A stretch of DNA of 64,000 nt. Source: Nereocystis luetkeana. Taxonomy: Eukaryota; Sar; Phaeophyceae; Laminariales; Laminariaceae. The DNA is taken from assembly GCA_031213475.1 (NCBI GenBank), contig JARUPZ010000017.1, forward strand, positions 6,526,167 to 6,590,166, written 5' to 3'. Positions 31,701-58,225 of the stretch are shown here, one piece after another (the first letter of the stretch is position 1; the number at the start of each line of letters is the position of its first letter). The notes beneath the pieces are model-generated. The model saw nothing but the letters and a program-made list of their open reading frames with translations. It did no database searches and was not told the DNA's origin. The translations under genes and the position numbers were made by a program.

Positions 31701-33354
31701 AAACCAAAAACGAGGGGAACCGCCCACACATGCGTATAGGTCAGCAGTTCCAACTGGTCCGTATCTCTAGGCCGCCATTCTGGACTGAGCATCCAGATAA
31801 AAAAAGTTAATCTACTCGATCGTTGCCCATGATCGCGTCGTCGGTCAGGATTGTGTGGTGATAACGCATGCAACGTCTTGAGCAAGACGCACTCACGTGG
31901 AAGGGAGACACTGGAGCCCGTCGTTCTCAAAAAGCTTACTGCAGGTCGGCAAACCAAACGTGCAAAAAGGGGTCGGAAAAGGGGCCCATGACGCAAGCGA
32001 CGCGGACGTAAGGTGTTGGTTGAAGCACATTTACGGCGAGGCAAACAGCAGGCAACGGCTCTCTGTCAGTTAAACTTGAGCTGCACAAGGTCTATAACCC
32101 CTTTTAGCCGGAGGGCACGAAGCACAGGGTACACGGCCGACAAACATTACCGAACCTATACACGGAACCAAACCACAGCAGGGTCAGCCTCGGTAACTCA
32201 CAGTTGCACGAGGTTCACCAACGGAGAGAAGATGGCAGCAGGCAGGGTGGTCAGACCACACCCCTCGAGCTCTCTGATCAGCAACGGCAGACACAACGGA
32301 AAGCAAGACGAAAAAGCCGTTGGAAACCGGCAAACCGGCGCAAACTAAAACCACCGTGAGCGAAGGGCGGCCACCTTGACATGGATGAGCGCTCAACATT
32401 GCAAACGTCGACGGGGAAAAGAAACACAAGGTACTCCTCGAAGACGGCCATTTAGAACACCAAACGGATGAGGAGGGAACACATGACCGCCGCAAATGAA
32501 GCCACGATCACCTGGCCAAACTCACGCCAACTACGAAGCAGGTTTGACGAGTTAATCAACCGCGGGCAGGGTCAAAATGCCGGGATTCCGGTTTAAGTGA
32601 ATAATTTCTGGCCCACACAAACGAGCACACAAGCAATGGCTATTTGGACGCCTGGTGAAGCATGAGACCACGACGCAGGAGCAATACAACACCAGGCACA
32701 ATAACAGGGATGCACAATGACTCACAGTTCTTCCAGGTTCACCATATCGGAGAACACATCTTCGGTGAGCACCACATCGTTGAACCCCAGCAGCCTGCCC
32801 GAGTAACGCAGAGGCGGCGGTCAGGATGAAAACTCAAGCCCCGTGACTGAAAACATCCCACGTTTAGCTAAACAAACGACAGCAAATATATAACCGAGAT
32901 GCCTGTTTTTGGCACCTAGCAAGCGCCATCTATCGTTGAAAAGCGCCCTGACATCCACGCCGTCGTCCGCATCCTCGACCGCTTGTTTTAGGTTGCAGGC
33001 AGCACTGTTGGCGCATCTCGTTTGCCGAACGCCTCTACTCGCCACAATCTTTGCCAGGAAACCGCGTTCACGAACTGACTACAACCGCGACGCGCCCAAC
33101 GATGGTCCTTCTGCTTTATGGCCTACAATATACCTTCGCCGGTCGATAGAATCGATTAGCTAGACTCTTCGCTTTCGTAGTCATGCCTCGGTTTGGGCTC
33201 ACCATGTCACGCTCTCGCACCACGGCAGAGCAATCGTAGGACACACAAAAAAAGGCAGCAATCGCATCGTTCGCAAACTAAATGAACGCCCAGATCAGTG
33301 CATAATATAGGCGTAGCGTCTGGTGCTTTTCAGACCGTAACACGCCCGACCACC

Positions 33355-33870: not shown

Positions 33871-34736
33871 CGCAAACAACGGTGCGAGATGTCCACGACA
33901 TTCACATGCCCGCTATAAAAAAAACGGCATGCCGGGTGCTGATGTCTCGGGGCTGGTATCATCAACCTGCGGCGGCATCGCGTACACGCAGTAAAGGCAT
34001 CCTACAACCAATGCTGGGAAGCAAAGGTACCCGGGGGGCGGGCTCACAGTTTGCGAAGCTCGGTCAGTCCCGATAGCGAAGTTCCCAAGTCCGTCAGGTT
34101 ATTGTCGGTCAACTCCCTACATGGGACGCAAACAGAAAAATAAGTTAGATCACAGCATAGTCGTATGAACGTGAACAGACTAAACTAGTGACAGATCAGC
34201 TTGCCCCTTCTTCAAGGGTGCATCACAAATGATTAGCTTTGATACGCAGGTTGCACCAGCAACCACCCCCAGACACACACGCGAAACAGATACAGTGCAG
34301 TGCGCATTGCATAACGTGCCACATCTATGAACACACAATCAGGATAACGGCGCAATGTTGTAGTACGAAGCTTAATCGATATATCACACAAATCCAAAAA
34401 GTAAACCCGACAAAAATACTGAGTTACAGGTTTACCTCGCTTTGGGCATACATTTGTTACCGTTGGTGGAGCCAGATCGAGCTAACTAGTGCACTCTCCG
34501 TCCGTATTCTGGGTACCTGGTCCATCAAATCCATCTTTCACCACCGCGCTCGACGCACACGCCACCAAATCCAGTCCCGGCGGGCTCTGTGCACGCACAC
34601 ACACGCAAGACACTTTCTCGTCCTGGTGGGGTGGAAAATCGTTCAAAGTTCGTCGAGCTAGGTGCGGCAACGTGTGTAGGCACGTCTGTGCTGGGCGGTG
34701 TTCAAAATACAAAATCATAACGGTTTTTGTGCCTGT

Positions 34737-34950
34737 GCCAACAGCAGCAGACAGCAGGCAGACTGTGCCTGTCCACAGCGTGCACACTGTGCCTGACCAC
34801 AGCAGACAGACTATGCTTGTCCACAGCAGGCAGACTGGGCCTGTCCACAGCAGGCAGACTGGGCCTATCCACAGCAGGAAGATTGAGCCTGTCCGCAGCA
34901 CTCAACAGCAGGCAGACTGGGCCTGTCCACAGCAGGCAGACAGACGGCTT
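34737..34950. repeat. 24-bp minisatellite
   Basis: About eight units of GTCCACAGCAGGCAGACTGG plus a short tail. The period is 24, so every frame encodes an 8-residue repeat (for example AGRLGLST). The outer units are more diverged. Confidence 0.9.
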
Positions 34951-35139
34951 TGTTTTTTTAGCTTTCTTCTACCTACGTACCAGGTAATAGCTACCGAAAC
35001 CCAACTACAAGTAGTCATAGATAGGCAGACTTCGCCTGTCTATCCACAGCAACGTTCGGGCCATGTGCTGCAGGTGATATTGTCAGGCCTACCCTCCTAC
35101 TGACGAGGGGACGGAGAAACAGGAGAAGATCTGCTGTAG

Positions 35140-35950
35140 TTGTACAGCAGTCAGTAGTAGTGGTGGCACCTGCTACGAGAACCTCTGTTGGATACATATA
35201 TGTCGTATCAGAGGTTGTAGATATTTCGTCTTCAAATTATGAGGGTGGAATCAGGAACCACACACACAACATCGAGTATGGTGTACAAAGGGCACAAGCC
35301 GAGCGTACTGCGACGCTGACCCTGGCCTCGTGGATCCTACTGCTACCTCTGCTGCTGCTTTGCTGCTGGAGAAGCTCTGATGTAGATGTTGCACAGCTGC
35401 AGTAGTTGTGGCACCTGCTACGAGAAGCTCTTTTGGGCATGCCATGTTCATGTTGTCGTCTCGAAAATATTATGCCGACTCTCGAGATGGGAAGCAGGAA
35501 ACATACAAAATACCGAGTGCAGGGTACGTACTACTGTAAATACAGTACGTATGTGTATATGCACGCGCACAAAGGGTGCAAGGGTTAGACCGACAAGCCG
35601 AGCGTACGGCGACGCTGACCCTGGCCTCGTGTGACCTACTGCTACTACTGGTGCTGCTGCTGCTGTTATGGTGCGGGAGGCGCACTGCTGCTGTATATGT
35701 CGTACATCAGTCCAAGTAAAGTTGTGGTGACACCTGTTGCGAAAAGTAAGCTCTTTCTGTTGGACAAAACATGTGAGATGCAGATTTTTATTGTGCTGAA
35801 TTTCAACCAGAAAACACTCTGCTGGACAAAACATGTGGAGTGTTGTGTGTTCTTGACTCTTTCTACCCGTCGACATCCAGCACCGCAGCAGTGTCCGTAC
35901 CGATTCCTCAACCCCTGATGTGAGATACAAGTTCTGTGGTACAGCAGTGC
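35140..35950. repeat. Tandem repeat, units of ~245-320 bp, three copies
   Basis: GTGGCACCTGCTACGAGAA occurs at 35163 and 35408, and a diverged form at about 35727. GCCGAGCGTAC with GACGCTGACCCTGGCCTCGTG occurs at 35298 and 35597. CTGGACAAAACATGTG occurs twice near 35760 and 35820. The reading frames across it are short and repeat-derived. Confidence 0.8.
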
Positions 35951-36757
35951 AGATTTCGTCTTCAAATCAGTTTTTTATGCCGGATTTCGAGGTGGAAACC
36001 AGGATACACACGACCAAATCCAGTACCAGGTACTTCTTCATATCAAGAGCCAGGAGAAACCAAGAACATTTACGAAAATTATTGAGATGCACCCACGACG
36101 GCGTACAGTAGTACAGTTATTTAGTAGTCGTACGTGGTAGATATTCCTTCGTGTTCGTTCGTTCAGCACAATACGAAATAATCCGTATGCGCCCAGCATG
36201 ATGCATCGCAGATATGACTACTGCAGGTATTACCGAGGTCGCACCTCATTACCACCAATTACTAGTATGACGTACTATTATTATTAATAGGTGGTAGCAT
36301 TCAGGGGAGTCACCGGCCAGTAATAGTCAATCGCTAGGGAAATAATGGAAAACGCGCGATCGGTTCACCTTACGCAGCTTGCTAAGTTGAGTATCGATCG
36401 ATCTGCCGATCGGTTGAACTCACAGCTGACGTACTCTTTTAGTTTCTTAAAAAATAATAGGTGTATTAGCTGTGGTCGAAGAATTGATTGGTAAAAGCTA
36501 CTCGATGTTTATTAGACACCGTTTTCGCGAGAAGATCCACTACTTAGTGCTGCCGCCGTATTTTATAAAATTATGAAATTCGACTGAGTTGATACTCAAC
36601 TTTGTTGCAAGCTGCCTGATTTTATTATTATGACTCGTCTACCTGGTACAAAAAACAAACAAAACAAAGTCAAATGTGAGAGAGAGGCATGAAACACCAA
36701 CACATACCTGGTAAAAAATAAGGGGGGTCCCAAACAAAAAACGAAACGTCACAACAG

Positions 36758-37144
36758 GTGGGAAATACCCCGACAAAGAACGAACACTTGCTGCTATATA
36801 TACGAGGCGAGAAACAGGGGGAAAAAAGTATCCTCACAAAAAGTCGGCCTGAAATTCTGCTGCGTCCAACTTCCTTCCTTCATGGTGTGTATCGCAGTAG
36901 CGGTATAACTGGTACGAGGTACCCACCTACCACGCGTCACACGGCAGTGTATACCAGGGATATATTCAGGAACGGTCTTGCCCTCATGCCTAGTGCAGCA
37001 GGAGCAGTGGTCGTCAGGTACACAGCTAATGATAGGAGTCCTGAGACTCTCCATGTTGGCGTGTCACAGGTGCCTTTCGTACGTAGTGCATGGAATGCAT
37101 ACTCGTACTCGTATTTTTTGGACGTACAGCAGTACTCGGTATAA
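36758..37144 (+). CDS. Open frame in foldback left arm (unknown)
   Basis: 128 codons open from a non-ATG codon just after ...CAACAG, ending DVQQYSV. The mirror copy (38124-38519) is 131 codons and differs by substitutions plus indels that keep the frame (TRYPPT versus NWYEVPTY; SYFLD versus SYFLLD). Frame preservation despite indels is suggestive of coding. The lack of an ATG suggests an exon following the CAG. No family recognised. Confidence 0.3.
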   Translation: MGNTPTKNEHLLLYIRGEKQGEKSILTKSRPEILLRPTSFLHGVYRSSGITGTRYPPTTRHTAVYTRDIFRNGLALMPSAAGAVVVRYTANDRSPETLHVGVSQVPFVRSAWNAYSYSYFLDVQQYSV

Positions 37145-37614
37145 TTACGAAATAGAATAATACCAGAGTAGAGTTCATCCATTATCCAGAGCTTCTTGGG
37201 TACATTGCGCTTGATTTCTGATACATAGGAACCGTCGTGAGGTTTGTGCGAGTCCTCTGTTCGGCCTGCTCAAGATGGCAGGTGCCTCCCACGGTTCTGC
37301 TGTACTGCCGTGAGACCAATCGAGCGCACGCCGGGGACGTGTGCTTGAGCGTTTAGTGCAAGATGATATACTTGGTACCAGGACTACCTGCTAAACCTGG
37401 GCCGAAACTCGCCATAAACGAGGCTACGCCGAGTTTGCATCGAACCAGGAAATTTCTCAGATGCCGACGACGATTCCGAAGTGCAGACCACGCTAGTCAT
37501 TTTTCAAGTAAAACACATCCCTAAAGATCCCTTCTCCCAGACTGCTAAACCTACTCCGCTTAATTTCTCCACCCGAATCCCGGACGAGTAAGGCCAACAT
37601 ACTCTCTAAACCGC

Positions 37615-37648
<34 letters not shown>

Positions 37649-38123
37649 GGTTTCTGGCCCCGGTCTCTGGCCTCGTGCACAGTTCATCGTAACGTCCAAG
37701 CCCTCTACCCCCTGACAACAACACGGTGAGACACAAGCAATGCAACGGTCGTTACTTTTCACACTCTTCTGCCGAGGTTCTGCGGCCACTCCTATATATA
37801 TACAGCACGCGCACAGATTGGTAGGCATCCTCCGGTATTGAGGGAGCAGATTGGATCCGAAATATCTCGGCAGGTAGTCCTGGTACCAAGTATCTTATCT
37901 TGCACTAAACGCTCAAGCACACGTCCCCGGCGTGCGCTCGATTGGTCTCACGGCAGTACAGCAGAACCGTGGGAGGCACCTGCCATCTTGAGCAGGCCGA
38001 ACAGAGGACTCGCACAAACCTCACGAGGGTTCCTATGTATCAGAAATCAAGCGCAATGTACCCAAGAAGCTCTGGATAATGGATGAACTCTACTACTAAC
38101 TCTGGTATTATTCTATTTCGTAA

Positions 38124-38519
38124 TTATACCGAGTACTGCTGAACGTCTAGCAAAAAATACGAGTACAAGTATGCATTCCATGCACCTCGTACGAAAGGCA
38201 CCTGTGACACGCCAACATGGAGAGTCTCAGGACTCCTATCATTAGCTGTGTACCTGACGACCACTGCTCCTGCTGCACTAGGCATGAGGGCAAGACCGTT
38301 CCTGAATATGTCCCTGGTATACACTGCCGTGTGACGCGTGTAGGTGGGTACTTCGTACCAGTTACCCGGTATACCGCTACTGCGATACACACCCTGAAGG
38401 AAGGAAGTTGGACGCAGCAAAATTTCAGGCCGACTTTTTGTGAGGATACTTTTTTCCCCCTTTTTCTCGCCTCGTATATATAGCAGCAAGTGTTTGTTCT
38501 TTGTCGGGGTATTTCCCAC
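38124..38519 (-). CDS. Open frame in foldback right arm (unknown)
   Basis: 131 codons, the mirror partner of 36758-37144 with the same ends (GNTPTKN ... DVQQYSV). All length differences between the copies are whole codons. Function unknown. Confidence 0.3.
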   Translation of the reverse strand: MGNTPTKNKHLLLYIRGEKKGEKSILTKSRPEILLRPTSFLQGVYRSSGIPGNWYEVPTYTRHTAVYTRDIFRNGLALMPSAAGAVVVRYTANDRSPETLHVGVSQVPFVRGAWNAYLYSYFLLDVQQYSV

Positions 38520-38999
38520 CTGTTGTGACGTTTCGTTTTTTGTTTGGGACCCCCCTTATTTTTTACCAGGTATGTGTTGGTGTTTCATGCCTCTCTCTCA
38601 CATTTGACTTTGTTTTGTTTGTTTTTTGTACCAGGTAGACGAGTCATAATCAGGCAGCTTGCAAAGTTGAGTATACCCTCAGTCGAATTTTATAAAATAC
38701 GGCGGCAGCATTACGTAGTGGATCTTCTCGCGAAAACGGTGTCTAATAAACATCGAGTAGCTTTTACCAATCAATTCTTCGACCACAGCTAATACACCTA
38801 TTACTTTTTAAGAAACTAAAAGAGTACGTCAGCTGTGAGTTCAACCGATCGGCAGATTGATCGATACTCAACTTTGCAAGCTGCGTGAGGTGAACCGATC
38901 GCGCGTTTTCCATTATTTCCCTAGCGATTGACTACTACTGGCCGCTGACTCCCCTGAATGCTACCACCTATTAATATTAATAGTACGTCATATAAATAG

Positions 39000-40250
39000 T
39001 TACGTACGTCAAAATATTCGTGAATAGTACCAGGCCGAGAAGGCTTCCCGTTTGTCGCACTGGATGCGATTCGGTTCAAAAACGTTTTTCGAGTCAAAAC
39101 GGAGACTCTCGCTCTTGGGGCTCGAGAGGTTGGAAAATAAATGTCAACTACAGAAAGTACGATGATTACAGACAGCATCGCGGATACGATTTCGGCCCCG
39201 CCCATCGTGTAGGGAATGGATATAGAACTATGATCACAACCCCTGAGCGTGCTCGGTTGGTGCATCCCTGGCCTCTCAGAGCTCCCACTTCCAAACCGCC
39301 TCCTTTCATGACTTACTTGCCGGACCTTTCCAGCAGTTCTTTGTTTTCTCGGTCCTTCGTTCCTTTTTTGTTCTTTCGTTTCGTGTGCGTGCGTGTTCTC
39401 CGAGCACGGCATCGCGGGAGGACCCGGCACCGTCGCGGGTGTCAGCGGGTGCTTGCGGGTAGAGGGGGGGTTGCAAGGAGCGCGGTCGCCGCTTTCGTGC
39501 CTAGGCGTCGCATGTGCCTCGAGACACGACAGATGCATTAACGGGCTTTGTCTGGGACCGATTTATGATTGTTGATAGAATATGTACGAGTTATGAAGGT
39601 CGTTCGGGAGGGCAAGATGATATTCAAGCGGTGCTTCTTTTTGCGACCACGCTGAAGTTGAAAGAGAGAGGTGTGCAGTTTGAATACCAACGTTATCGAG
39701 CTGTCGAACGGAGGCCACGGTGAGCACCGGACTTCACGCGAGGCGGGCAACGGGGCTGATTGTGGCAGAGAGAGATAAAAGCTTTACCCGGACCGAATCG
39801 GTGACGAGGTGGTCGCGAGAGGGGCGGGCGGCGTACGAGGCTGAGAGAGAAGCTCTTCTTTGCGATTTTTTTTTTTTTTTTTTTCGACCGGATGCAAGGT
39901 GCTCCAATCAGGCAGAACATTATTGTACGAGAGGGGATGGGGATTTTTTTTTCTTTCCGAATTTTAGGTTTAATTTATTATTAGGGTGTCTGCGCAAAAT
40001 AAAGAGTATTAGGAAATTTGCTTCTGTATTCCCCCGTTACCGACGACTAATCAAATATCGTAATCAAACTTGCATAAAAAGGACGAAGTTACGCATTTTT
40101 GGATAGTATATTTTGACTACAGTCATATTTGTAAGATATGAGATTCGACCGCTGCATTCTGTTGGCCGAAAACTCTCCGGACGCTTCGGATTGGCCAAAC
40201 TTGCCCCGAGAGTGATCTGGGGCCATGTCTGATACCGGCGGGGTTTTGCG
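39000..40250. other. No recognised gene; long T-run
   Basis: Overlapping open frames at 39020-39541 (plus) and 38921-39538 (minus) carry no recognisable domain. A plus-strand frame to 39723 (DDIQAVLLFATTLKLKERG) looks protein-like but was not identified. A T-run lies at about 39867-39884. Confidence 0.4.
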
Positions 40251-40254
40251 AGAT

Positions 40255-40695
40255 TTGCTGCCGCTGCTGCTGCATGCCTAATCTGCTGCCTGTTGCTGTA
40301 GCAATTAGGTGCTGCTGCAGCTGCTGATGCACGTCACAGACTACTGCTACTACGGCATGTAGTGTGCTGCTGCTGCTGCTGCAAGCGCGCACCCTTGCCG
40401 CCACGCTCCTGATGATTCTCGCCGAAATACCAACCCTTTTCGGGCAAAGCAAGAGAGGGAAGACAACAAAGAAAAAGGAGCGCGATCTTTTCGTTGTGGC
40501 GGCGTTGCTTGCACAGCGAGCGTCGACGAGCGCAAGTTTGATAGCACTGCTGCCTGCTGGTGCTTGCTGTGCTGCTTACTGATCCTGCAGCATGTCTATG
40601 TTGTGCTGCTGCTGCTGCTGCTGCTGCGATAGGTCTGCACTGCTCGTTGCACGTGCTCATTGGGTCCTGCAAAAGTGCTGCCGCTGCTGCAAGTG
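40255..40695. repeat. CTG/CAG triplet clusters
   Basis: Broken (CTG)n tracts at about 40255-40330, 40364-40383, 40600-40628 and 40675-40695. The poly-Cys, Leu or Ala frames over them are low complexity. Confidence 0.8.
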
Positions 40696-41157
40696 TTTTT
40701 TTTTAAAACATGAGAATCCAATATTTAGCTATTTATTCGTCCCCGACTATGCGCATGCCGGAAGGCTTCGATTGTGATTATATTTCCGACGGAAATCCCC
40801 GATACACAAAAATATTATGCGCAGACACTCTATTGTTTTTGCTGCTGTGTCGTGCTGTGCTTTCGGTTTCACCGTACATACGAGTACAGACATAGAGCAT
40901 ATCAAAAAAGAGGAAATAAGTACAGCGTTAGTACCCTACCTGGGGTATGTACGTACGTACGACATCCGCGACGCGAAGCGTATGTGGCGTCCGAGCTGAC
41001 GTCGGCGCTGTTTTTTCCGGAAGCATGGCGGCAGGACTCTTGGCGTTATCAAGTCGCCGGTTTGCAATTACGATCGTTAAAAAAAACTAAATTTAATCGT
41101 GGACCTCTGTTCGCTTCGCATAATTTGATGTCCTATTTTCCTTCCTGAGCGAGCGTA

Positions 41158-41179
41158 GCGGGCGGCGTAGGCCGCCCGC
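41158..41179. terminator. Perfect 9-bp GC stem with GTAG loop
   Basis: GCGGGCGGC-GTAG-GCCGCCCGC, flanked by GAGCGTAGCG and GGAGCGAAGCG. It lies just after an open frame ending at 41148 (ends LMSYFPS). It looks like an organelle- or bacterial-style hairpin, without a T-tract. A role as terminator is only suggested by shape. Confidence 0.3.
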
Positions 41180-41469
41180 GGAGCGAAGCGCCTTGTACTT
41201 ACGTATACGTGTCGGTCGCCCCGATGGTCTGTTTGTTATGTATGGTAGTGTACCCTCCAAGGCTACGAATACGAAGTAAGGATGATGGGTGAGTTCAACC
41301 CCAACGGCGGTTCCGTGGTGACATTTCAACTTTTTCTGCAAAATACTATTCATACCAGTATTTGGGCCAACCGCTGAGAGTGCATGGCGTGGCAAATCGA
41401 GAGGGAGGGGTGGACAGACCTTGACAGCAGTTGATCTTTACGGGGGGTTTGTGTTTGACGCCTGAAGCC

Positions 41470-41655
41470 GACCCTCCAACCCAAACCCAAAACCCAACCG
41501 TAACCCGAACCCTATGCCAGTGATCAGTGCTGGGATGATGTGCTTGGTAAGACTATAGGTTGGCTCGGCCGGCGTGGATGCTGAGCTTGGGAGACTCTAG
41601 GTTGACTCGGGATGCTGTGGCTGGATGCTGTGGCTGGGAAAGCCTCGAGTTGATT
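41470..41655. repeat. AACCC-like degenerate tract and ~45-bp tandem repeat
   Basis: CCAACCCAAACCCAAAACCC and related phrases at about 41478-41515 are followed by three diverged units with TAGGTTGGCTCGG, TAGGTTGACTCGG and GAGTTGATTAAGC, and GATGCTGTGGCTG twice. Confidence 0.6.
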
Positions 41656-41659
41656 AAGC

Positions 41660-44245
41660 CGCGTCAAACACACCCCTAGCCAATCAGGGTGCCTAATAAG
41701 CTACCTTAGAGGAAGATCTACTACCATGCTTTGTCCACTACTACTGCAATTCGATGCTATTGGGTAGACGCAATTCGACGCTACAAAAGTCAGACAAAGA
41801 AGAACTAAAATGTAAGAGCTGTACAACGTACGACACACACAGTAGTAGCGATGGTGGCATACCGTATATTTTTACTACTACACGCAAGATATCACACCGC
41901 CGGGAACAATTTTCAAGCACAATTCCCTCCAAAACATGGGGGGCACAAACAACGAAGAGAGTTGTGTCTTCGGAAATATTCGGTTGAGGAGGTTGCATAC
42001 ACTCATCGTCCTCTGTGGACGCCCTCGTCGTTGTCGAGGCCCCCAGCTAGCTTTGAAAATTGTTCGAGGGTGTGTGTGTTTATTATCACCCTATGAAATA
42101 GTGTGATAGTGTTATACGGTACTCTTACAGGTGCACGCTCTGCTTACTTCTTGCGGTACTAAATTAATACGCTTGGTACCTCCCTCGTACAGGACACCAA
42201 AAAAAAACCAGAAAGTATGACCCATGCTGTGTTTCTTACTCTAAATAATTTAATATAGAGAGGGGGTGAGTTCTAGACTAACTCGAGTATGGCGCCTCCC
42301 GACATTTTTGTTTTCTTGTAAATCTCAGCCTGGGTTTCTTATTGTTGTACGTTGTCCCGTGCTGTACGTAGACGTGTGATTGCGGTAACTCGCAGAAACG
42401 TACGCCGGTTGTACGCCGTATATACGTCCTTGTTTCCTTTTTATTGTTCGCCAGAAATAAGCCTGGAAATATCCATGAACATACAGCGGTATACGGCAGC
42501 ATGTATCGTACCAGGTATAAGGTTTCCGTTCGAGATGTCGTTGACTTGAAATCACGGGGGTTGTTGTTGTTTGTTGTTGTTGTTCTCACATTAACTCTCT
42601 GACGAAGGAGTCCGTGGTCACACAAAAGGTGCTGGAGCCCTAGGAAGATCCGAAAAACAAAAAAAAAAAAACGAAAATTCGGCTGCCTCAAAATACACGA
42701 GACGGAAAAAGCGCACACAAGATAAAACCAATGTGCAAAACTGAACTAACATGGCCGCGGGTATATCCTCTCAACTATAATATAGGGTGTCGCTAGTTAA
42801 AGGGGGGGAAAGCTTCATTTTTTTGTTTCTTTGTTTTTTCCGAGTACTACTGCTGCTGTGGTACTGCTGTGTGACAAGATGAGGTTCGACGACTTATAGT
42901 TAATTTCAAATTGCACGTAGAACGTGATAATAGTTGCATACATTACACGGGGGAACACTGCACACACATAAAACACCGAAAAACAAAACGTGGCTGTCAC
43001 CAGAGCCAGAATGCGAAGCTATTGTGCTGTTTTACCGCAGCTGGACTGCTTCTCCCGTTGTTGTGGTGTGTATCGTGGCTGCGCGACTGCTTTTGAAACC
43101 CCGAGGAAGTGTAGATTCGTACCGCCGTCCTGTCCCCTGCGCGGCACCCAATAAGAAGCACATTTGTTGATATCATGTGTGTGTCACCCAACAGATAACA
43201 CATAACACATTTAATTTGTTGAAATAACGCGTGTGTTTGTTCGCCCTTCTTTTATGCTGTAGGTCGACACGAAATAGGGTTCACACAAACACACACACCC
43301 AATACACCGTCCGTGGCCGTCACAAATGAAGAGCTCGATGTGCGACTGACTGCTGTTAATCCGTGGCTGCCACATGGTAGAGAGCTTGGGTGACAGTGTG
43401 TTGACGCCCTCATACGGCAGGGGCAGCCACCACCTTATCGAGAAAATGTTAAATAGCGGGATTTCCGGGTCTTGCTCGACTCTAGCTGGGCCGAACGCCT
43501 CTCCGCGATTACTTGCCATTCCCGAACTCGGAAGGCCCACAGGACGCGCCACGGAGCCCAGTGAAGATCCAGACTCACGCCGCAGTGTACACGCGATCCC
43601 CCGCATTAGAGTGAGACAGAAATCGTACCCTAACCCGAACAGAAATCGTGGCCGATGTATGAAAAAATCTACTGGGTAGATATTCGTGTCCAGATGACAT
43701 CTCGGACTACACGCCTTTCTTTGTAATCGTAGTCTGAAAACCTCCATTGTACCGACGAGTGCCTATGAATATGATACCCAAATTCTCCCCCGGTTGGGGC
43801 CTGCCCGGGTGAAATCGCGTAGAACAGTACCAGTCAGTGGATATATGTGTACCGTTATATTTCCCGTGGTGCAGCCCCGATCACCACACTGGTTTCATCA
43901 TTCCGCATCAAATACCTCGTGGGATAGTATGCCCGGAAAAAAAAAGCAGTCTTGGCATCGAGCCCAAGACGATGCCCGCGGAAATACCTGCCCTACTGAG
44001 CACACCCTTTAATTTTTTCAAATAGACGGAGCTTCACATTCTGGGCGACAAGAGATACCGCCAGGTAGCTGGCATTAAAAGGCATACCCGGAGCTTGGCC
44101 GGCATGCCTCCCAATGTGTAGTTGCCCAGTCATTTAATAAACCAGCTTCCCGATCGCTGCCCTTTGCCGCATTGCTTTTCAGCGGCACATCGCGTATTTC
44201 GCGCCCGTGTACAGAAATCCTACCTAGGAGCTTGCATCGCGAGGC
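41660..44245. other. Upstream region of the LRR gene; no certain gene
   Basis: The largest frame is 178 codons at 43211-43747 (minus), including a protein-like stretch SNRGEAFGPARVEQDPEIPL. Its family was not recognised. A pyrimidine-rich and AT-rich mix precedes the LRR start; no TATA box can be assigned with confidence. Confidence 0.35.
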
Positions 44246-44494
44246 ATGGTGCTCAATGCGGGGCGGGTCTCGGTATTTGGCTTGATGCTGGTCAGTGTCG
44301 ATGTTTCGAACGCGGCTCGGGAAACGTTGTCGGTGACGGAGGGCGGCGTCACGTTCACTGCTGTCCGATACGATGACGGCCGCAACAAGCCCTACAGGCT
44401 CAAATTCCGCCAGGACGACACGCGCTCGCTCTACATGTTCAACTCGGCGGCCCAAGTGACGAACCTTAAAATAGGCGAGGCGGAGAGGTACCAG
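44246..44494 (+). CDS. LRR gene exon 1: signal peptide
   Basis: ATG at 44246 opens 83 codons, phase 0, up to donor CCAG/GTGCGT. Residues 8-18 (VSVFGLMLVSV) form a hydrophobic core after Arg7, and Ala-Ala at 23-24 offers a cleavage site. This is a typical secretory leader and supports this ATG as the start. The mature part (VTEGGVTFTAVRYDDG, LYMFNSAAQV) looks like a beta-rich N-domain. Confidence 0.75.
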
Positions 44495-47400
44495 GTGCGT
44501 CGTTGTCGAATTCTGCCAAGCGAGTACTTCTAGGTGGCGCGAATGTGTAGTGATGTAGCGCTGTCGTGCGTTCCGCATGTATGTGTCCAATATTTTGCCC
44601 TACCGAGACGAACGTCGAAATAGCTGCACGCCGTATATGGAAATCACGTGCAAGGTAGCATTTTTACTTCAACTCTGCGAACATCCAAACGTGATTTGTC
44701 CACGTGCCACGGAAGATAACCGTTCTAATGTGTTATTGCATACTGTGTTTCTACGTTTTCAAATATGAACCATGTGGGCTCTCGTTGCGTCACTCTCCCG
44801 ACTACTGTTATGGCCTCAAGATACTCTACGACACTAGCGATAACCTGGAGAGCGTGGAACTGACGCCGCCTACCAGGCGAAGCCTCGCCGTGGAGGAAAA
44901 TGACGCGGCCGCGATTGAAGGCCGCCGTCTCGAGTTCGACGACTGTACCGCGTGCGAGGACGCCTGGGTCTCACTGTGCAGTGGCGCGTCTTCCGTGTGT
45001 GACCTGGTCGACCATGGTTCTCCGTTGAGCACCGCGGCTGCTGCATCCATCGATACCATGTGCGGGACGTTCGGAAGCGCATGCTCGATATACGAAGCTA
45101 GCGAGGCCTGCCAAGACCAATGCACCGACGAAGGTCTGTCCCACCAATACACGACTTTCCTTGGAAGTCCGTACATACATCATTGTCCGTCGTTACGTTG
45201 TCGCTGGTATTTTATGCAGATTCCTGACTCTCCAGGACTTTTCTGCTCTTGCTCGTTTGAGTAATCGCTGCAAGATTCGAACGTGTTTGGTTTGGGGGTT
45301 CTGTATTTGCGAGAGATGCGTTCGATGTGATACCTTCCGTGACTGGAACCATGTGTAGTCTATAAGCGAGCTGTGTGTGGTCGACGGTGGGCGATCGCGT
45401 TCGCCTCGATGATCGGGAAGCCTGGATGTCATAGCCTTGTCTCTTTCCGCCGGATAAAACAACATACTGGGGCGTTCCTCGGCTAGCACAATTTCGCACT
45501 CTAGCTTGTTTCGGCTTGATAATGACATGCTGGTTAATTCGTCCGCCAGTTCACATTCAGTTGATATTCGGTGCTATGGAGGTGCACGCACCCAAAGGGC
45601 TTGCTTTAAGACTCCATATTATTATTGTTATTGTTAGTACTAATATTTTATTTATATTTTTATTATTGTTATTATTATTATTGCACTACCCAACCGAAGT
45701 CATTCGTCGACCCGATGTAATAGCAGGGTTTCTGTATTTCAAATACCGCGAAATACCCACCCATGTGCAATGCACGCTTACAGACCACTGAAATGTCTTC
45801 CCTCTTGCGCCTGTTTTCTATCCGTGGGTATGTATCCCCAGTGGTCGGCAGCAGCAGCAACTCGTGCCTAGACCCCACCCACGGGGATTACAAGTGCACG
45901 TTCTCGGGTGACACATCCATGTGAGATGCTTTACGATTCAATGCAGATCATCTCTGGTTGGCAGTACGTTGTGAGATACTGTACGATGCGTTGCAATTTT
46001 TCTCTGGTTGGTGTTAGGTTTATCCATATGCTGTGAGGGCGATTCCTTGGTTACTAGGGAACCGCTGTGCCAATGGGAGGAGCACAGGGTGCTGCGTTTT
46101 CAGAGCAGATGGTCTGTCGATGCGCCCTGTCGCAGGTTCTCTCGGGGTGCCTTGGATGCCTCCATCTACCCGAGGCCGTACCCACACCCGCGTTCACGGT
46201 GCTTGTGCAACCATTGGTCGCTGTAGCGCAATGTCGCAGGTGTTATACGCGACCTGCGATGATATTTAGGACGGATACCCACGTTCTTGATAGCTACTAA
46301 GAGTTGGTCATGCGCCACCGTTCGTCGCGAGTGTTTATCTCAGCGATAGGCGAGTGTTTGAATTAGTACGATCCTCCCAGCCATAGGGATACGATTCGAT
46401 AGAACGGTCGGACGCTTGTACACGTATTTGATGCCCGCAGTGAAAGCAATCGCCCGCGGAGCACTACGTTTCGCCGTGGTAGCCAGATGGCGGCGCACCT
46501 ACGCGAACATGCTATCCATGGTCGTTTGATGCTGCAAGCCGCGCGACGGTATGCGCGCGGCACGAGTACACGTGCAGCTTGACGAGCTTTACGTATGGTT
46601 CCCGCGTTGCTTCTGTCTGCCTCTTTGTGCAGGGTGTTCACCGAGTGTGACCTAACCAACGATGACGTTCCGTTTTTGCCGGCATGCTTCGAGGAGTTCG
46701 GGAAAGCGAACATCGAAAGGCTGTGAGTGCCCAGCACGGCGAGTGACTCACTGCTGTGTGAAAGATACAAATTGAAAAGTTGTTTGTTCATCGGGATATA
46801 TACGGGTTTAGTCGAGCGACACTTGAAAATACATCCCGCCGTGGACGATAGAATGATTGAAACCCCCGCTAGGAGGCCCATGTGACGGCCGTCTACGTAA
46901 ATACGGAGAACGCTCTCTCCGATCTCGCTTTTTATAGCACACCAGAATCTAGATAGAAATGATACATGTTTGGAGACATGCCACGTTTGACGGATGCATG
47001 TGTACAGTACACGATGGCGGAATCGCTCCGGACCGAGGCTAGCATGCGCGGTGCAATGCGTTTAGCCCAAAGGGCGTACTCATCTTGTTACCTGCCTGAG
47101 TCATTTGACCATATACCACCCATCCCTTTCGAGACGGGACACCGTTCAATCTCCTAGTACAGACACCCCCAACGGTTGGGCGCTCGTCAACTTGTTTCCA
47201 CAGGTTACTCAAGAAACTGTAGCTACTCTTACCCCGTTCCTGTTTCGCCGACTGTGGCCACCGTCTATCTCCCAGGGTGGCGATTGTGTTCTCTCTCTCT
47301 GGTGTACCAAGCTTTTCCATGTCACGTTCTTCGTTTTTGCCTATCTTCTCCTCTAACACAGTCTGTTCCTCCTTGTGGATTTGATATTATCACACTGTGT

Positions 47401-50400
47401 GAGTTCTACTCTCTGATGTTCGCCACAAGGGCACATCGGTGCTTACTTCTTCCTCCTCGTCCCGGCTACTGGTTTACCTCGTTCGTTCTGGTAGGTCCAG
47501 GTACCCTATACGAAATCGCAGTTTCAGCGTTTCGGCGAAGTCTGTTGGGCCGTGCGAACACGTTTCATACTCACTCATCCTTTCTCTTTACCCCGCGGAT
47601 ATTGCTGAGTCTTGATCTTACCTGACCTTATTTCTCACGGGAGGGGGCACGAGTGGAACGGGTCCTGCTTGCACGTCATATGTATACAGTGGCTTAGGTT
47701 GGTTGCGCACTTTTGTCGTATCTCTGTTTCTGTTTGTGCTGATATAACTCCCGCGTGGTTTACGCCTTTCGCTGTCGCCGCGTTGGATTTTGTTGGTGTT
47801 CAGACTCCTCGATGCAAACCACGACGTAACATCATACGGGGACGGGACGTTCGCCGGCCTGTCCGAGCTGACGTTTTTGTGAGTGCCTGTCTCTCTGTGG
47901 ATCAGCATCGCGTTGGAAGGCACCCTATGCACCTCCTGCCGCGAGGCCAACTTAAAACAAGGATATCGGTGTTATCAGGGCATTCGATGGGATTAATTGC
48001 CCACAATCGCTTATCACGGTTCAACCACCTAACACTGTAGGGTTGCTCTTCGAATGCTGTTGTGCGTTTTTACCGCCTGTACCCGAAGGCGACTATATGT
48101 TGTATCGTTTTCTTCGACATGCTGTTCGTTTGTAGGCGAATTGCCGGGCGACTGCTCGCGTTTGACGATATGAGTCGTTCCTTCTTGCGCTCAACGAAAC
48201 AACAGACGTTGTATGTTTTACACCGCGTTGGGACCAAGGGCAAGCTCCGTCAAGCCCCGCTCGCCTCGAGAGGTTAATTTTTCTCTTGATGCGGCGATTG
48301 CCTGTGGCTATGGTGACGCACACGATTCTTTTATTTTAGGGCACCGTTTTGATGTCCGACGCTGTGCTCTGTTTGTGTTGATGCTTCTCTTGCGCAGGGA
48401 CCTATACTCCAACGGGTTGATAACCGTGTCGGACGGGCTGTTCGACGGCCTGACCAAGCTCGAGTTCTTGTGAGTAAGGAAGGCCATACTCGGTCGCTGC
48501 TCTCACTTGTAATATACGTACTACCGCAGTAATTGCTCGAGCGGCCTGGCCAATACTGCGGCAGACTATACCATGCCTTATACTGGGATCCACTGGCCTT
48601 CATTTGTACACGACCAGTACTGTTTGTGGTTCCCCGTGCTACCACCTTGACCCACGGTCACCTGGGCCGCCTTCCCCGAGCACCATCTACCTGAGCCTTG
48701 GCATACGTCCACCGCGATGGTTGGTTTTCGACAGTTTTTGACACCGCCACTACCGTTATGTTGCGTGGCGTGTGTCGTATGACGTCGTGTTCGTCCAGGG
48801 ACTTGGCCTTCAATGATCTGGTCAGCCTGTCCGAGGGAGCCTTTTCCGACCTTTCAAGTCTCCAGATATTGTAAGTATGGTGCAGAGGCACAACAGGTCG
48901 TTCGTGACCGAAACCCTCTAGCGGTAGTCGTTATGGCCACGGCGGGCCCTTGGGGTGCCGGAATGGCAGACAACGCGCCTCGCAGGCGGTGGTGTGGATA
49001 GCGGGCGTTAAATTGGGGCCGCAGATGCTCGTCGGGAGATTTGGCGGACGCGCATCCATGAACACCCACCGGCGCTACTGACGCTAACGTGCTATGTTGG
49101 GGTTGCTGTTTCGTATGCTTCGTATATTCCTTCCCTTATGAAAGGAGGGGGCCACGCTTTGTCTTAGGGCTCGAAGAAAAACCATAGGTTCTCCGGCAAG
49201 CACTGGCCCCCCTGCATTACTCTGGTATCATGATTATCAATGTGTACATAGTGGAAGAAGCGCCACAGTTTATCAACCTCCACTCCCGTTCCGGCTTTGG
49301 ATGATTCAGGCGGGCCTTCAGCAACGAGTTGACGCCCGAGACACTGCCCCTTGGTCTCTTCTCGGGAACTCCCCTACTGCAAGAGCTGTGAGTGCGCCTA
49401 TTAATGTGTAGAGGCTACGTTTGCAGGACTATTTGCCAAACGTTTCGACTCCCACGTGCGGGCGGTTTTGTGTTGACGACTACTCTGGCGGTTTCGTCTT
49501 CTAAAACAGTTGGTGCGGCGGTTCCCCCGTTGTTTGCCAAGTAACTCCAGGCATAGTGTTGGCTTTGTCTAGGATGCAACATGTTCACGTTATGGCCGAC
49601 GCGCTTATCAAGATAGCAGTTACCTTTTTTTTCTGTTGATGCTCTAACGACCTCGGTGCCCGCGAAGAAGTCATCACGGCGTGTCCAACCTTCGCGGCGC
49701 TCAAAGAGCAACGTTGGAGGGCACTCTACATGGGTGCCTATGGGTTTTGTCTTCTCCGCCCCCATGGTTGCTGCCTTACCCGCCCCCCAAAGATGATTTT
49801 AATTGATAAGGTTTCGCGAACACTAGACCAAAATCCATCACAGTTCCGATCTGTCACGAAAATAGCGGCAGTTCACTTTTGTCTACTGTTCATATCTCGG
49901 TATCGTAAACGTTAGCCTCCCAAAGTCGACTCACAGCAACACGGAGCTCAGCACACCTGTCCGAGTATTGCGTTGTTACGGCAGCCTACCCGTCTTTCCC
50001 CAAGACATACTTTCGTTATTATCGCACACATGGCCTGACTCACCCGGCACCCGTCGTGTTTCAGCAAGCCCTGCTTGCTTCTGCTGGCGCGCTTCCAAAT
50101 GCAGTAAACAAAACACACATACAACGTGCACTGCCTTTTGCACCGTTCGCTTGCACTCAAACCCGGATCTTGCCTCTGCCGCAGGCGATGGTAGCCGTCT
50201 TTAGTGGCGGGGTCATGACCGACGAGGCGTCGCCGATGTAGACGTCTATTTTCTTAAAACAATATGTTGGGCGCCCGTTCATCACATGCCGTCGCCTCCC
50301 TTGCGCTCGGAACGGTTTAGGTACCTTAGCAGCAACTCTCTGGGAGATATGACGGGTCTGGAGGGACTCTTCGATGGCCTCACGGAGCTCACCAGATTGT

Positions 50401-53400
50401 GAGTCACGCTAACCACCTTGCCTCCAACACGACTCTCTATGTACGACGGGCAACGCTGTTGAGGCAGCGGCCGGTTTGGAACAATCAAGCGCTCTCGCCA
50501 TCCGAACCATGTCTGTAGTGATGTCTTTTTCGTGCCATCACCACTACTTGTTTGGCGGCGGCTCACGTTTTCTTTCATCTTTGTTTTGGTTGCTGTTCCC
50601 GTGTCGTGACGCTTTGGTCGTCCTCCCAGAGGCCTCAGCGAAGCTGGCGTGCGGACGGTACCCGCAGGATTGTTTGCCGATCTCACCAAGCTGGATTATT
50701 TGTGAGTAATATTTTGTTCGCTGCCCTCTGCCTTACTCACAACCTGCAAGCAAGGGAGCTTGAAACGCCGTTTTTGCTGCACCTGCAAGTACGTAGGAGC
50801 ATTCTCCGGCCAGCTGAACCACTCGTGGGACCCGTGTCCACCGAGAGCTCGGCGAGCGCCGCAAGGGCTGAACGCGAACCGAAACACGGGCGTCGGTGGA
50901 AATATTTACGACCCGTCAGGATGTTGTAGTAGACAAACAGCTGGTTTGCTAGTGGCTGGTGGTTGCGGTAGCTCTGGCTTGCAGTTGAGGGAAGCTGTCC
51001 CCGTTCGTCGGTGTTGTTGCGATGCACGTGTTTGTTCACATGTGGTTGGAATCCCCAGAGGCTGCAATTTTTTGTTTCTCGCGTGCACGCCTGTGCCGCA
51101 CTCGGTATATTAGTGGTCACTGCGGGCCGCTCGACATATCGGTTAGCCTCGGCGTAAGGAACGAAATAGTCTCCGGATCAAATGGGTATGGGAACGAGTG
51201 TACCTGACCTCTGCCGTGCTGACGCTGGATCTGGCGGAAAACCATTGTGAGTCACTTTATTCGGTTCCGTTGTTTCTCTACTTGTATAGATTACGCTCTG
51301 GAGTATCTGTGCTTGCACATAGTGTGCGTCTATGTGGCCATCGACGTGGCGGATATTTTCCAACTGATTCTCAATCTCGTCGAACGCGTACGGAAATCAG
51401 AACTTGATACACGTCGGGTTTCATAGTGGTATGCAACAAAGATCACCATTCCATGATACTGAGTGCGTCCAGTTGATTCGAAAGTTTTTGCTCGTGGTTC
51501 TCCAGCTGAGCCATTCGTATAGAGTTTCCTTCTCATGCCGCATGCTATTGGAAACCGTAACGATTATATTTCCGCCCCGCTATCGCTCGACGTCTCGTTA
51601 CAATGGATTGCCAGGAGCTTTTGGATCAACAGCCTGTCCTCCTTGCCTGACGGGCTGCTGTCGCCCCTCACGGCATTGCGTACCCTGTGAGTTCAGTAGG
51701 AAACGCGCATGACATGCCCCGTCATTGTTTGGGTCCAAAACTTGCCGTTTGTCGAGTTCACTGTCGATTCGGCGAGGAAGCGACGACATAGTGTCGGTTG
51801 ACAGCGAACACGCTTGACCGTGTCGTGTCGAGACGGTCGTTCACCGCCAGAATACGGACGGATAGTGCACTAGTTAGCTCGATCTGGCTCCACCAACGGT
51901 AACAAATGTATGCCCAAAGCGAGGTAAACCTGTAACTCAGTATTTTTGTCAGGTTTACTTTTTGGATTTGTTTGATATATCGATTGAGCTTTGTACAACA
52001 TTGGGCCGTTATCCTGATTGTGTATTCATAGATGTGGCACGTTATACAATGTGCACTGCACTGTATCTGTTTCGCGTGTGTGTCTGGGGGTGGTTGCTGG
52101 TGCAACCTGCGTATCAAAGCTAATCATTTGCGATGCACCCTTGAAGAAGGGGCAAGCTGGTCTGTCACTATTTTAGTCTGTTCACGTTCATACGACTATG
52201 CTGCGATCTAACTTATTTTTCTGTTTGCGTCCCATGTAGGGAGTTGACCGACAATAACCTGACGGACTTGGGAACTTCGCTATCGGGACTGACCGAGCTT
52301 CGCACACTGTGAGTCCGCCCCCCGGGTACCTTTGCTTCCCAGCCTTGGTTGTAGGATGCCTTTACTGCGTGTACGCGATGCCGCCGCAGGTTGATGATAC
52401 CAGCCCCGAGACATCGGCACCCGGCATGCCGTTTTTTTATAGCGGGCATGTGAATGTTGTGGACATCTCGCACCGTTGTTTGCGCCGTTTGTGGGCGTGT
52501 CATCTTTGAAACCTGCACCCTTCGTGTCGCTCTGCGGCAGCACGAACGTGCGATAAATCATTACATGCATATGCTTGTTTTGAGGTTCGAACAATGCAGT
52601 TGGTGTCTGACCTAGTGAGACTCGACGCTTAGGGCACTGGTTGGTCTGGCATTGCTTCGGCATCCGCGAACACATTCGTTGACGTTGACTGAAGTTTCTC
52701 GAGAGATTCAGGAGAGATGGTGCGTTATGTTTCTGTTTGAAAAACGCAATAAGCAAGGCGTACACTATGTGTTGGTACGATTCCCGAAAGAAACCTGCAC
52801 CCTGCCCGTCGCTTTGTGGTATCCCGAACGAGCGTTGCATTACTCCATGCACCCTATGCTTACTTTGAGGGTTGAACAATGCGGTTGGGGTCCGTCCGAG
52901 CGAGACTCAACTCTTTGAGCACCGGTTTGTCTGGCTTTACTGCGGTATCCGCGAGCGCGTTCGTTTTTTAATGGTTTTTTTCTCGAGAGGTTTAACAGAG
53001 GTGGTCTGGCGTGTTACGGTCTGAAAAGCACCAGACGCTACGCCTATATTATGCACTGATCTGGGCGTTCATTTAGTTTGCGAACGATGCGATTGCTGCC
53101 TTTTTTTGTGTGTCCTACGATTGCTCTGCCGTGGTGCGAGAGCGTGACATGGTGAGCCCAAACCGAGGCATGACTACGAAAGCGAAGAGTCTAGCTAATC
53201 GATTCTATCGACCGGCAAAGGTATATTGTAGGCCATAGAGCAGAAGGACCATCGTTGGGCGCGTCGCGGTTGTAGTCAGTTCGTGAACGCGGTTTCCTGG
53301 CAAAGATTGTGGCGAGTAGAGGCGTTCGGCAAACGAGATGCGCCAACAGTGCTGCCTGCAACCTAAAACAAGCGGTCGAGGATGCGGACGACGGCGTGGA

Positions 53401-56400
53401 TGTCAGGGCGCTTTTCAACGATAGATGGCGCTTGCTAGGTGCCAAAAACAGGCATCTCGGTTATATATTTGCTGTCGTTTGTTTAGCTAAACGTGGGATG
53501 TTTTCAGTCACGGGGCTTGAGTTTTCATCCTGACCGCCGCCTCTGCGTTACTCGGGCAGGCTGCTGGGGTTCAACGATGTGGTGCTCACCGAAGATGTGT
53601 TCTCCGATATGGTGAACCTGGAAGAACTGTGAGTCATTGTGCATCCCTGTTTTTGTGCCTGGTGTTGTATTGCTCCTGCGTCGTGGTCTCATGCTTCACC
53701 AGGCGTCCAAATAGCCATTGCTTGAGTGCTCATGTGTGTGGGCCAGAAATTATTCACTTAAACCGGAATCCCGGCATTTTGACCCTGCCCGCGGTTGATT
53801 AACTCGTCAAACCTGCTTCGTAGTTGGCGTGAGTTTGGCCAGGTGATCGTGGCTTCATTTGCGGCGGTCACGTGTTCCCTCCTCATCCGTTTGGTGTTCT
53901 AAATGGCCGTCTTCGAGGAGTACCTTTTTGTCCCTTTTCCCCGTCGACGTTTGCAATGTTGAGCGCTCATCCATGTCAAGGTGGCCGCCCTTCGCTCACG
54001 GTGGTTCTAGTTTGCGCCGGTTTGCCGGTTTCCAACGGCTTTTTCGTCTTGCTTTCCGTTGTGTCTGCCGTTGCTGATCAGAGAGCTCGAGGGGTGTGGT
54101 CTGACCACCCTGCCTGCTGCCATCTTCTCTCCGTTGGTGAACCTCGTGCAACTGTGAGTTACCGAGGCTGACCCTGCTGTGGTTTGGTTCCGTGTATAGG
54201 TTCGGTAATGTTTGTCGGCCGTGTACCCTGTGCTTCGTGCCCTCCGGCTAAAAGGGGTTATAGACCTTGTGCAGCTCAAGTTTAACTGACAGAGAGCCGT
54301 TGCCTGCCGTTTGCCTCGCCGTAAATGTGCTTCAACCAACACCTTACGTCCGCGTCGCTTGCGTCATGGGCCCCTTTTCCGACCCCTTTTTGCACGTTTG
54401 GTTTGCCGACCTGCAGTAAGCTTTTTGAGAACGACGGGCTCCAGTGTCTCCCTTCCACGTGAGTGCGTCTTGCTCAAGACGTTGCATGCGTTATCACCAC
54501 ACAATCCTGACCGACGACGCGATCATGGGCAACGATCGAGTAGATTAACTTTTTTTATCTGGATGCTCAGTCCAGAATGGCGGCCTAGAGATACGGACCA
54601 GTTGGAACTGCTGACCTATACGCATGTGTGGGCGGTTCCCCTCGTTTTTGGTTTGCCCCGTGTCGTTTTGAGATGGAGAGTGTTACGCGCTGCGTTTCAC
54701 GTGTGTTGCAGCAAAAAGCAATACTACCGTGCTCGTTTTCGTTTTTTTTTCTCGAACGACTCGCTTGTGGAAATCAAGGTTTTGGCTTGCGATTTGTCCT
54801 GCAGCGGTCCACCGTCTTCCTCCGAATGGCACATGACCAGACCCCTTGCGTCGCCCCCTGTTGTTTCGTTATGATCAGCACTGCTACGGACATCAGAATC
54901 AGCGACGGCGTTGCGGATGGCACGTGCGGTGAGTTTTCCCGTAGTTTTTGTTCGTGTTCGCTGAAGGGGGCCTCGCCGCCCACATTATATTCATGCGTTA
55001 CGAGTACAAGTGGTTTTTTATTCTCACCTCTTTAGTAAATAAAATATACATCCGTAACAACAGCTATAAACTATTTCCGGTAAAACAGAAGCGCGCGCTA
55101 ATCGTAGGGAGCGTCCTATCTCCCGAACGAAATAAATACTGGTCGTAGATCAGTAAAAAGTGTGCCTTAGTACCAGGTACCTTTTTTCATCCCGCAACGC
55201 TATTTGTGTATTTTCATCAGTCCGCAGCCCTCAACCGGAATACTTTCGTTGCGACGCTCGTGGCTTACGGAACGTGGGCGTCCGTGAGGGGCTTGCATGG
55301 GTCGGTGTCCGAGTGATTGGCGTTGTGCCGGAGTTCGAAGTTGGACAACATCGGTGGGGCGAGATTTCGTACGTTTTTGAGTTGACCAATATATTTTCTA
55401 GGGTGTTTGGGGTTGCGTTCATTTCGGATCCGTCGAAATTATCAAGCAGCAGCACAAACAGAGTTGCTGCGAATCACATGTTTCTTGAGACGTATGTCCG
55501 ACATGTTTCACAGGTCTGGTTCGGGAGGTATGACGCTTCCCGTGAAGTGTCTTTCCTACCGCTCAAATGCTTGCTACACAGTAGAAATAGTTTATGCTTC
55601 TGTTGTAACCATGTTTTAGAAACTTGTACTGAGTACACCGAAGTAGCAAACATAACGGCACGGTCCCTTATAGGGTACCCACCTCACCCTTCGCTTGGCG
55701 CTTGCCTTCAAGAGCTCGTCATTATCGAGACGCACACGTGGCGCACGTGAGTATATATGAGCCAGTGCCATATCAAACGTGTCGCTTTCTATGTTGCTCA
55801 GGGGGATTTCAGGTCCACAAATTACTGAATGGTCCGCTCCTTCTTTTCGCTTTTCGCCGCGCAGAGTGCACTCCCGCCGACGCGGTCTTCTGTGACGATG
55901 GGCTGTCCTGCCAGAGCGGAATGACTGGCTACACGTGCGGTGAGATTCCGGAGGCTCCTGGTGTTCCTGGTGTTGTTCAGGGGTAGGACACCTGGTTGTC
56001 GGCGCCCGCTCTCCATTTACCGAGCATTGAGACGTTTGACAGGTTTGTTCGCCACGTAGGGCCATCACCGAACGGGATGTATTCCTCGAGGCGAATGTTT
56101 CATTCGGTAAGCCCTTCGATCAAATATTTGGTACGATGTTGTACGACCCCCCTGAAGCTGTATAGCAAGGAGTTCGATGATGTGGCACAGTCCCTCCGCC
56201 GTGCATGAGAGGAGTTGGTGCGAGCACATCATCGCAACCCTAATCACCCGCCCTCTTTGTGCTGTCCCGTTGCGTTTTCTGTTGGACAGTCGCCTAAAAG
56301 TAAGCCATTTGCCCAATGTTATGGATATCAACGGTGGGGACATTCAGCATGTTCGAGAAGAAGGTCGACGATACCTTGCCCACGACCATAGCGATGAGCC

Positions 56401-57723: not shown

Positions 57724-58225
57724 GTGTATCTGTGGTAGTCGCTTCCGATGGCGGCAAACTAGTCGCGCAAAGCAGCTAATTGTTCCAGGAAGATCCCAGG
57801 ACTGTTGAAGAGATAAGCAGCTTATACAGACAACACCCTAGCGGGGATCGTCGGCTGTTGCCACCGTGCAGCATGTCTGCGTCACGGTAAGTGATATATT
57901 TGACGCTGCGTGTCCTTGCTTCTGGCTATACATAGTGTATGATCTTCACGTGTATAACCTGGCAGATTCTCCGGTTTCGCCGCACTCCCCCTAGACGCAC
58001 CCTACTTTGGAAACCCGTGCCTTGGTTATCAACTGGGAGAGTCGGAGGAACACCGTATTCGAATGACGCGCGCCTCCGAAATGCAAAGCTTCCCTCTTCT
58101 ATCAGCGACCCTATGCACGTTTCACCGCTGTACACTCGAGACAGGTGTGGACCCTGCTCGTTAAGTAGAATAAAACGGTGATGCTACATGAATATACATC
58201 ACGAATGATGTTTTCTAGTATATAC
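57724..58225. other. Right-arm sequence without recognised gene
   Basis: Short open frames mirrored at about 28.13-28.57 kb; nothing recognised. Confidence 0.4.

Follow-up and report, generated by a model that had tools for sequence, protein, structure and literature searches.

The window, by which we mean the whole stretch of 64,000 nucleotides of Nereocystis luetkeana DNA analyzed here (C17:6526167-6590166, placed by a search of the 465-Mb assembly), is likely to owe its structure to an inverted segmental duplication whose left copy carries a fragment of an LRR gene (gene A) devoid of its 5' part, with gene conversion between the copies since then and occasional inversion possible. A 41-kb block, from intron 11 of gene A to about 37 kb past its 3' end, would have given rise to a second, inverted copy 17.3 kb upstream. 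Of the two, the right one would be the original, since the gene is whole there, and the left one a 5'-truncated and probably silent fragment. The copies would then have swapped sequence by gene conversion, which would have kept parts of the arms nearly identical. An occasional crossover outcome may also invert the locus, in which case gene A would normally keep its 3' exons as it turns over, leaving its protein unchanged.

Anatomy of the inverted repeat

Self-BLAST of the window and of an extended stretch of the chromosome delimited a left arm on the minus strand (C17:6519792-6560678), which occupies window positions 1 to 34512 entirely and extends 6,374 bases leftward past the window, and a right arm on the plus strand (C17:6578013-6619257), of which positions 51847 to 64000 are found in the window. 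The window edge falls inside the right arm, which extends to the window-equivalent position 93091. Between the inner ends of the arms (34512/51847) there is a spacer of 17,334 bases (34513 to 51846). With the window only, BLAST gave 98.2% identity between the arms, with 116 substitutions in 12,101 alignment columns, and a repeat of 12 kb at 98% is beyond chance. The full arms measure 40,887 bases (left) and 41,245 bases (right), that is, about 41 kb each, and differ by 670 substitutions in 40,176 aligned columns (1.67%). A preliminary description of this DNA had proposed a check with reads exceeding 12 kb; the inverted repeat that it described is real, but the arm size of about 12 kb that such reads imply was that of the part seen in the window.

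The homology of the arms stops on both sides, and the outer flanks differ. When 23.6 kb of the left flank and 30.9 kb of the right flank were compared, the sole similarity outside the arms was a stretch of 0.6 kb at 84% on the same strand. As assembled, the locus therefore has what identifies an inverted segmental duplication, namely, two long, near-identical copies in opposite orientation with defined ends within unlike flanks.

Some other repeated or possibly mobile sequences were observed in the window. The spacer contains a 1.1-kb inverted repeat of its own (36266-37391 and 37870-38992; 94.6% identity), perhaps a transposable element, and the left arm codes for a Helitron-like N-terminal domain at 9449-10030 (Pfam PF14214, E value of 1.2e-14).

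Structure of gene A and its paralogue

Gene A, an LRR gene with no fewer than 16 exons, lies nearly complete on the plus strand (44.25 to 55.99 kb). Its homologue P0001 maps to it exon by exon on that strand, from 44249 to 55938 (tblastn), and this mapping confirmed the earlier placement of exons 1 to 11 within the 17.3-kb spacer and of exons 12 onward within the right arm, with the arm boundary inside intron 11. Exon 1 (44246 to 44497; start codon chosen by eye, end approximate) encodes a signal-peptide-like start and the first N-terminal part, and exon 2 (44821 to 45132) a Cys-rich part; both were delimited by tblastn with P0001, as was exon 3 (45847 to 45921), the ends of exons 2 and 3 being approximate. 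An exon-phase script together with tblastn gave exon 4 (46633 to 46722), which precedes the first LRR, and the LRR exons 5 (47804 to 47878), 6 (48398 to 48469), 7 (48799 to 48870, also by comparison with gene B, described below), 8 (49310 to 49387), 9 (50321 to 50398), 10 (50630 to 50701), and 11 (51615 to 51686), the final one in the spacer. For the exons of the right arm, comparison of the arms was added. The script and tblastn gave LRR exons 12 (52240 to 52308) and 14 (54082 to 54153); LRR exon 13 (53560 to 53628) and exon 15 (54417 to 54458), where the LRR part ends, came from tblastn with ends set by eye, and exon 16 (55865 to 55986), which encodes a C-terminal Cys-rich part, from tblastn. 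Within intron 4, the stretch 47072-47565 (ca. 494 bases) recurs genome-wide at about 79 to 80%, with at least 42 other matches from the 40 of 3,554 candidates that were scored, nearly all of them to this stretch.

To the right of the inverted repeat, on the minus strand, we found gene B (C17:6625647-6638145; L012 and L013). It is paralogous to gene A and nearly complete, its exons follow one another as in gene A, and counterparts of exons 11 and 12 lie within this one gene. Genes A and B are an older, convergent pair, facing each other. Over 657 bases from nine exons (the other seven being omitted because of gaps, shortness, or unclear ends), dN was 0.099 and dS 0.557; the resulting dN/dS of about 0.18 is a sign of purifying, not diversifying, selection on average in those nine exons.

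The 3' end of gene A can be read in two ways. The last exon matched by P0001 covers 55864-55938, and exon 16 is either read through to a stop at 55984-55986 or spliced from a donor at 55940 to a further last exon. A donor directly after the exon 16 Cys codon is kept in both paralogues (GTGAGA in gene A and GTAAGT in gene B), and no last exon resembling that of P0001 was found downstream of it. Between exons 15 and 16, a further small exon has probably been overlooked: residues 509-525 of P0001 had no tblastn match in gene A, and the two exons, as read, have mutually incompatible phases.

The gene A product and its LRR exons

The product of gene A looks like a secreted protein, to judge from the order of its predicted parts: a signal-like start (judged by eye), N-terminal and Cys-rich parts, LRRs, and a C-terminal Cys-rich part. 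P0001, with 553 residues, was 60% identical over a 322-residue query. The protein search, in which 7,996 candidates were scored, listed at least 113 matches; those to named algae include Ectocarpus, Undaria, Laminaria, and Scytosiphon. The Undaria protein P0006 matched the N-terminal part of gene A (tblastn), and, taken with the exon pattern, these matches point to a brown alga. A Pfam scan of 250 LRR residues returned LRR families only, the same scan of the exon-2 reading frame returned no family, and the matches listed for P0001 in searches of NCBIfam and PDB were all generic LRR ones. In the structure prediction of P0001 (mean pLDDT of 74.3), blocks of residues 201 to 490 reached 85 or more.

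All nine bounded LRR exons (5 to 12 and 14) could be read as one LRR per exon in phase 2, the only phase that the script sought, and five of them (6, 7, 10, 11, and 14) have a length of 72 bases, the rest measuring 75, 78, 78, and 69. One LRR per exon, phase 2, and often 72 bases is the brown algal pattern given in the portion of PMC11378527 consulted here, which cites Zambounis 2012 and mentions 15 non-ROCO Saccharina japonica sequences with such exons. Gene A resembles the brown algal ROCO genes, as presented in that portion, in its phase-2, one-LRR exons, five of the nine having the 72-base length given for ROCO genes. However, ROCO genes have ROC-COR domains, whereas the N-terminal part of gene A is Cys-rich, the parts scanned with Pfam (the 250 LRR residues and the exon-2 frame) contained no ROC-COR, and P0001 lists only LRR domains. 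For lack of ROC-COR in these parts, membership of gene A in the ROCO group was rejected.

The left-arm copy of the 3' exons

As had been described, the left arm bears the same 3' exons on the opposite strand. By tblastn and comparison of the arms, copies of exons 12 to 16 were located on the minus strand at 34048 to 34116, 32726 to 32794, 32202 to 32273, 31897 to 31938, and 30369 to 30490, respectively; those of exons 13, 14, and 15 are identical to the right-arm exons. Exon 12 has a C at 52305 in the right arm, within a Thr codon, and an A at 34051 in the left arm, within a Lys codon, so the Lys/Thr difference reported earlier was also found here. A difference at 55978 in exon 16 places the left-arm stop two codons earlier if this exon is read through, and a further one is located at 55858, just upstream of exon 16, near its acceptor. 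The splice sites of exons 12 to 16 are alike in the two arms except for a base of the exon 12 donor (GTGAGT/GTGAGC) and one base near the exon 16 acceptor. Only one amino acid difference between the two 3' ends is supported, Thr/Lys. The site corresponds to residue 446 of P0001 (S446), predicted to open a short strand in the LRR sheet; the strand face of LRRs commonly serves in binding.

The preliminary description had also claimed that a TCTA indel changes the frame of the last exon. The indel exists (57602/28752), but the frame change was rejected, as the indel falls outside any homology-supported exon. Similarity between genes A and B ends near 56.63 kb, and beyond it, around the indel, there is only an 18-base match at chance level; P0001 gave no match there (tblastn). 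A 169-residue query covering exons 10 to 16, used to look for transcripts or alleles joining exon 11 to exon 12, retrieved two weak and distant matches among 254 candidates.

Divergence between the arms

The divergence of the arms is patchy, ranging from 0 to 4.4% per kilobase. The arms are identical over as many as 1,246 consecutive bases, a length attained in none of 2,000 shuffles, whose longest runs averaged 420; there are 52 identical tracts of at least 150 bases and 37 of at least 200 bases. This mosaic suggests past gene conversion between the arms, although it could also stem from mutation that was uneven along the arms or from a patchwork of old haplotypes. In the window, the 1.4 kb adjoining the spacer diverged by 2.36%, compared to 0.78% elsewhere. 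A special decay at this edge was considered and dropped, since 8 of the 42 one-kilobase windows of the full arms, the edge one included, reached 2.9% or more.

We used gene B as an outgroup for 40 substitutions between the arms in the 3' part of the gene: it sided with the right arm in 11 cases, with the left arm in 4, and with neither in 10, the remaining 15 falling in gaps. By this comparison, the left arm is derived at 52305 and 55978, and the right arm at 55858. The polarity leans weakly toward the right arm as the conserved original. Intron 11 of gene B matches that of gene A well only up to 51835 and weakly beyond; as the good match stops 12 bases before the arm boundary, it does not suffice to prove the right copy original. 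The duplication history has against it, among other points, the weakness of this 11-to-4 polarity and the fact that, in a search of the assembly, the right inner junction was matched by C17 only.

Possible exchange between the arms and its effect on gene A

When inverted repeats cross over, all of the sequence from one exchange point to the other is inverted. Because this whole stretch turns over together, the spacer keeps its own inner arm, and what happens to gene A depends on where the exchange lies. Of the 39,506 matched columns, only 445 (1.13%), within the 458 bases adjoining the spacer, separate the Thr/Lys codon from the spacer edge, and those before 55982, approximately the end of exon 16, number 4,082 (10.33%). 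An exchange past exon 16, where nearly 90% of the matched columns are found, thus inverts gene A whole and leaves its protein the same. The longest identical tract before the Thr/Lys codon has 100 bases, while all 52 tracts of at least 150 bases are beyond it. Exchanges simulated at six points, with the sequence rebuilt by script, agreed with this geometry: at arm offsets 101 and 353, exons 1 to 11 gained Lys; at 473 and 2,153, Thr was kept and the left-arm base was gained in exon 16; at 4,253 and 18,153, both right-arm bases were kept. The earlier expectation that each orientation would contain a whole gene is upheld. The accompanying one, that recombination would put exons 1 to 11 before the left-arm exons, holds for an exchange in the first 0.4 to 4 kb but not elsewhere in the 41-kb arm.

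Inversion at this locus is plausible. Crossovers between the arms may occasionally flip it within the species, mostly without altering the gene A protein, as a neutral polymorphism; this reading supplements the duplication and does not replace it, and we give it somewhat less than an even chance. The long and close arms, their mosaic identity, and the 37 identical tracts of at least 200 bases are in its favor, as are, by analogy, the Saccharomyces flip/flop (PMC9731477) and human inverted repeats (PMC3961182), to the extent that the parts of these sources used here describe them. However, no inverted allele or second orientation was seen in the single assembly. A more ambitious proposal is improbable: that the arms recombine in living algae, that both orientations segregate, and that conversion or inner-edge crossovers sometimes put the Lys exon 12 on gene A. 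If true, a brown algal LRR protein would gain genomic, template-driven variation of one predicted binding-face residue.

Other explanations of the locus

An assembly artefact, with two haplotypes joined head to head, is very unlikely. A divergence of about 1.7% does fall in the range for alleles, and two small redundant contigs, C628 and C1050, indicate an imperfectly reduced assembly. But the two copies have unlike outer flanks, which alleles should not have, they are separated by the 17.3-kb spacer, and not a single N is present across 154 kb of locus and flanks. Moreover, the redundant contigs, which span the outer right end of the inverted repeat with right-arm sequence, fit the right-arm side at 99.7 to 100% and the left arm at 96.9 to 97.7%, where compared.

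Both contigs are near-exact repeats of C17 at that outer right end. For C628, the first 20,000 bases show one mismatch and four gap openings and the last 9,587 are exact, this comparison covering all but the 1,999 bases in between; C1050 has no mismatch and two gap openings over 24,627 bases. Across its first 20,000 bases, C628 exceeds C17 by 55 bases. The right arm also contains an apparent tandem array with a period of 50 bases and staggered self-matches (ca. C17:6609511-6610390, across L010 and L011), and the left arm is gapped there.

The preliminary description interpreted the locus as a genomic switch for a recognition protein, in which the spacer inverts when the arms recombine and exons 1 to 11 thereby acquire the left-arm 3' half. 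Such a switch would alter what the protein recognizes. The presence of exons 12 to 16 in both arms, with splice sites shared apart from two bases, would suit such a switch, and so would the position of the Thr/Lys site at the start of a predicted LRR strand, whose face often binds. By analogy, a working inversion switch exists in Hansenula polymorpha (PMC4238957, as far as the part used here goes). Nevertheless, the interpretation fails on the exchange geometry. Exchange does not as a rule alter the product, with so few matched columns before the Thr/Lys site or the end of exon 16 and no identical tract longer than 100 bases before that site; one supported residue differs, and the assembly contains one orientation. 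The model would require the arms to recombine at their inner edge, e.g., through a site-specific enzyme, and we consider it extremely improbable. Equally hard to credit is a conversion cassette, with the left fragment as a silent donor that rewrites exons 12 to 16 of gene A: the mosaic identity of the arms would fit, but such a donor differs by one or two residues and has almost nothing to write, and the dN/dS between genes A and B in nine exons carries no sign of diversifying selection.

Comparison with known systems

Diversification of brown algal LRRs through somatic recombination has already been proposed as a possibility, in a paper according to which no recombined ROCO locus had been reported (PMC11378527). 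The duplicated locus offers a test site for somatic LRR recombination, while its geometry and near-identical 3' ends weigh against a working switch. As a general lesson, where a long inverted repeat has its inner end inside a gene, inversion gives that gene a different tail solely when the exchange point lies between the spacer and the tail. A literature search covering the titles and beginnings of abstracts listed found no description of such a repeat, which is not proof of absence.

In the parts of the published accounts used here, three systems are comparable. In H. (Ogataea) polymorpha, inversion switches the mating type, with ca. 18 kb between two MAT loci; the gene copies have all but their ends in common, and outside their first 24 residues the two a1-like proteins do not differ (PMC4238957), from which we infer that gene parts sit inside the repeats. 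The locus described here is alike in having inverted repeats that contain gene parts, but the H. polymorpha repeats are just over 2 kb long and their inversion has been demonstrated, is raised by starvation, and makes expression dependent on position (PMC4238957), whereas here the arms are 41 kb and no inversion was seen. Among human inversions that lie between inverted segmental duplications, several exchange exons or are expected to have no effect on the mRNA (PMC3961182); genes overlap the repeats there too, although those inversions have been genotyped in people and the present locus is known from one assembly. The flip/flop region of Saccharomyces chromosome XIV has 4.2-kb repeats 24 kb apart, and its inversion is proposed to be a by-product of conversion, while about 53,800 mitoses and 950 meioses yielded no flip (PMC9731477). 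The spacer is of similar size in both, and the repeats would be alike in homogenization by conversion, which for the algal arms is our reading of their mosaic; in Saccharomyces, both orientations have been shown in populations (PMC9731477), compared with one orientation in one assembly here. Inversion between inverted repeats that overlap genes is already known, and this locus is a new instance of such repeats, one that would work at most like the Saccharomyces flip/flop region.
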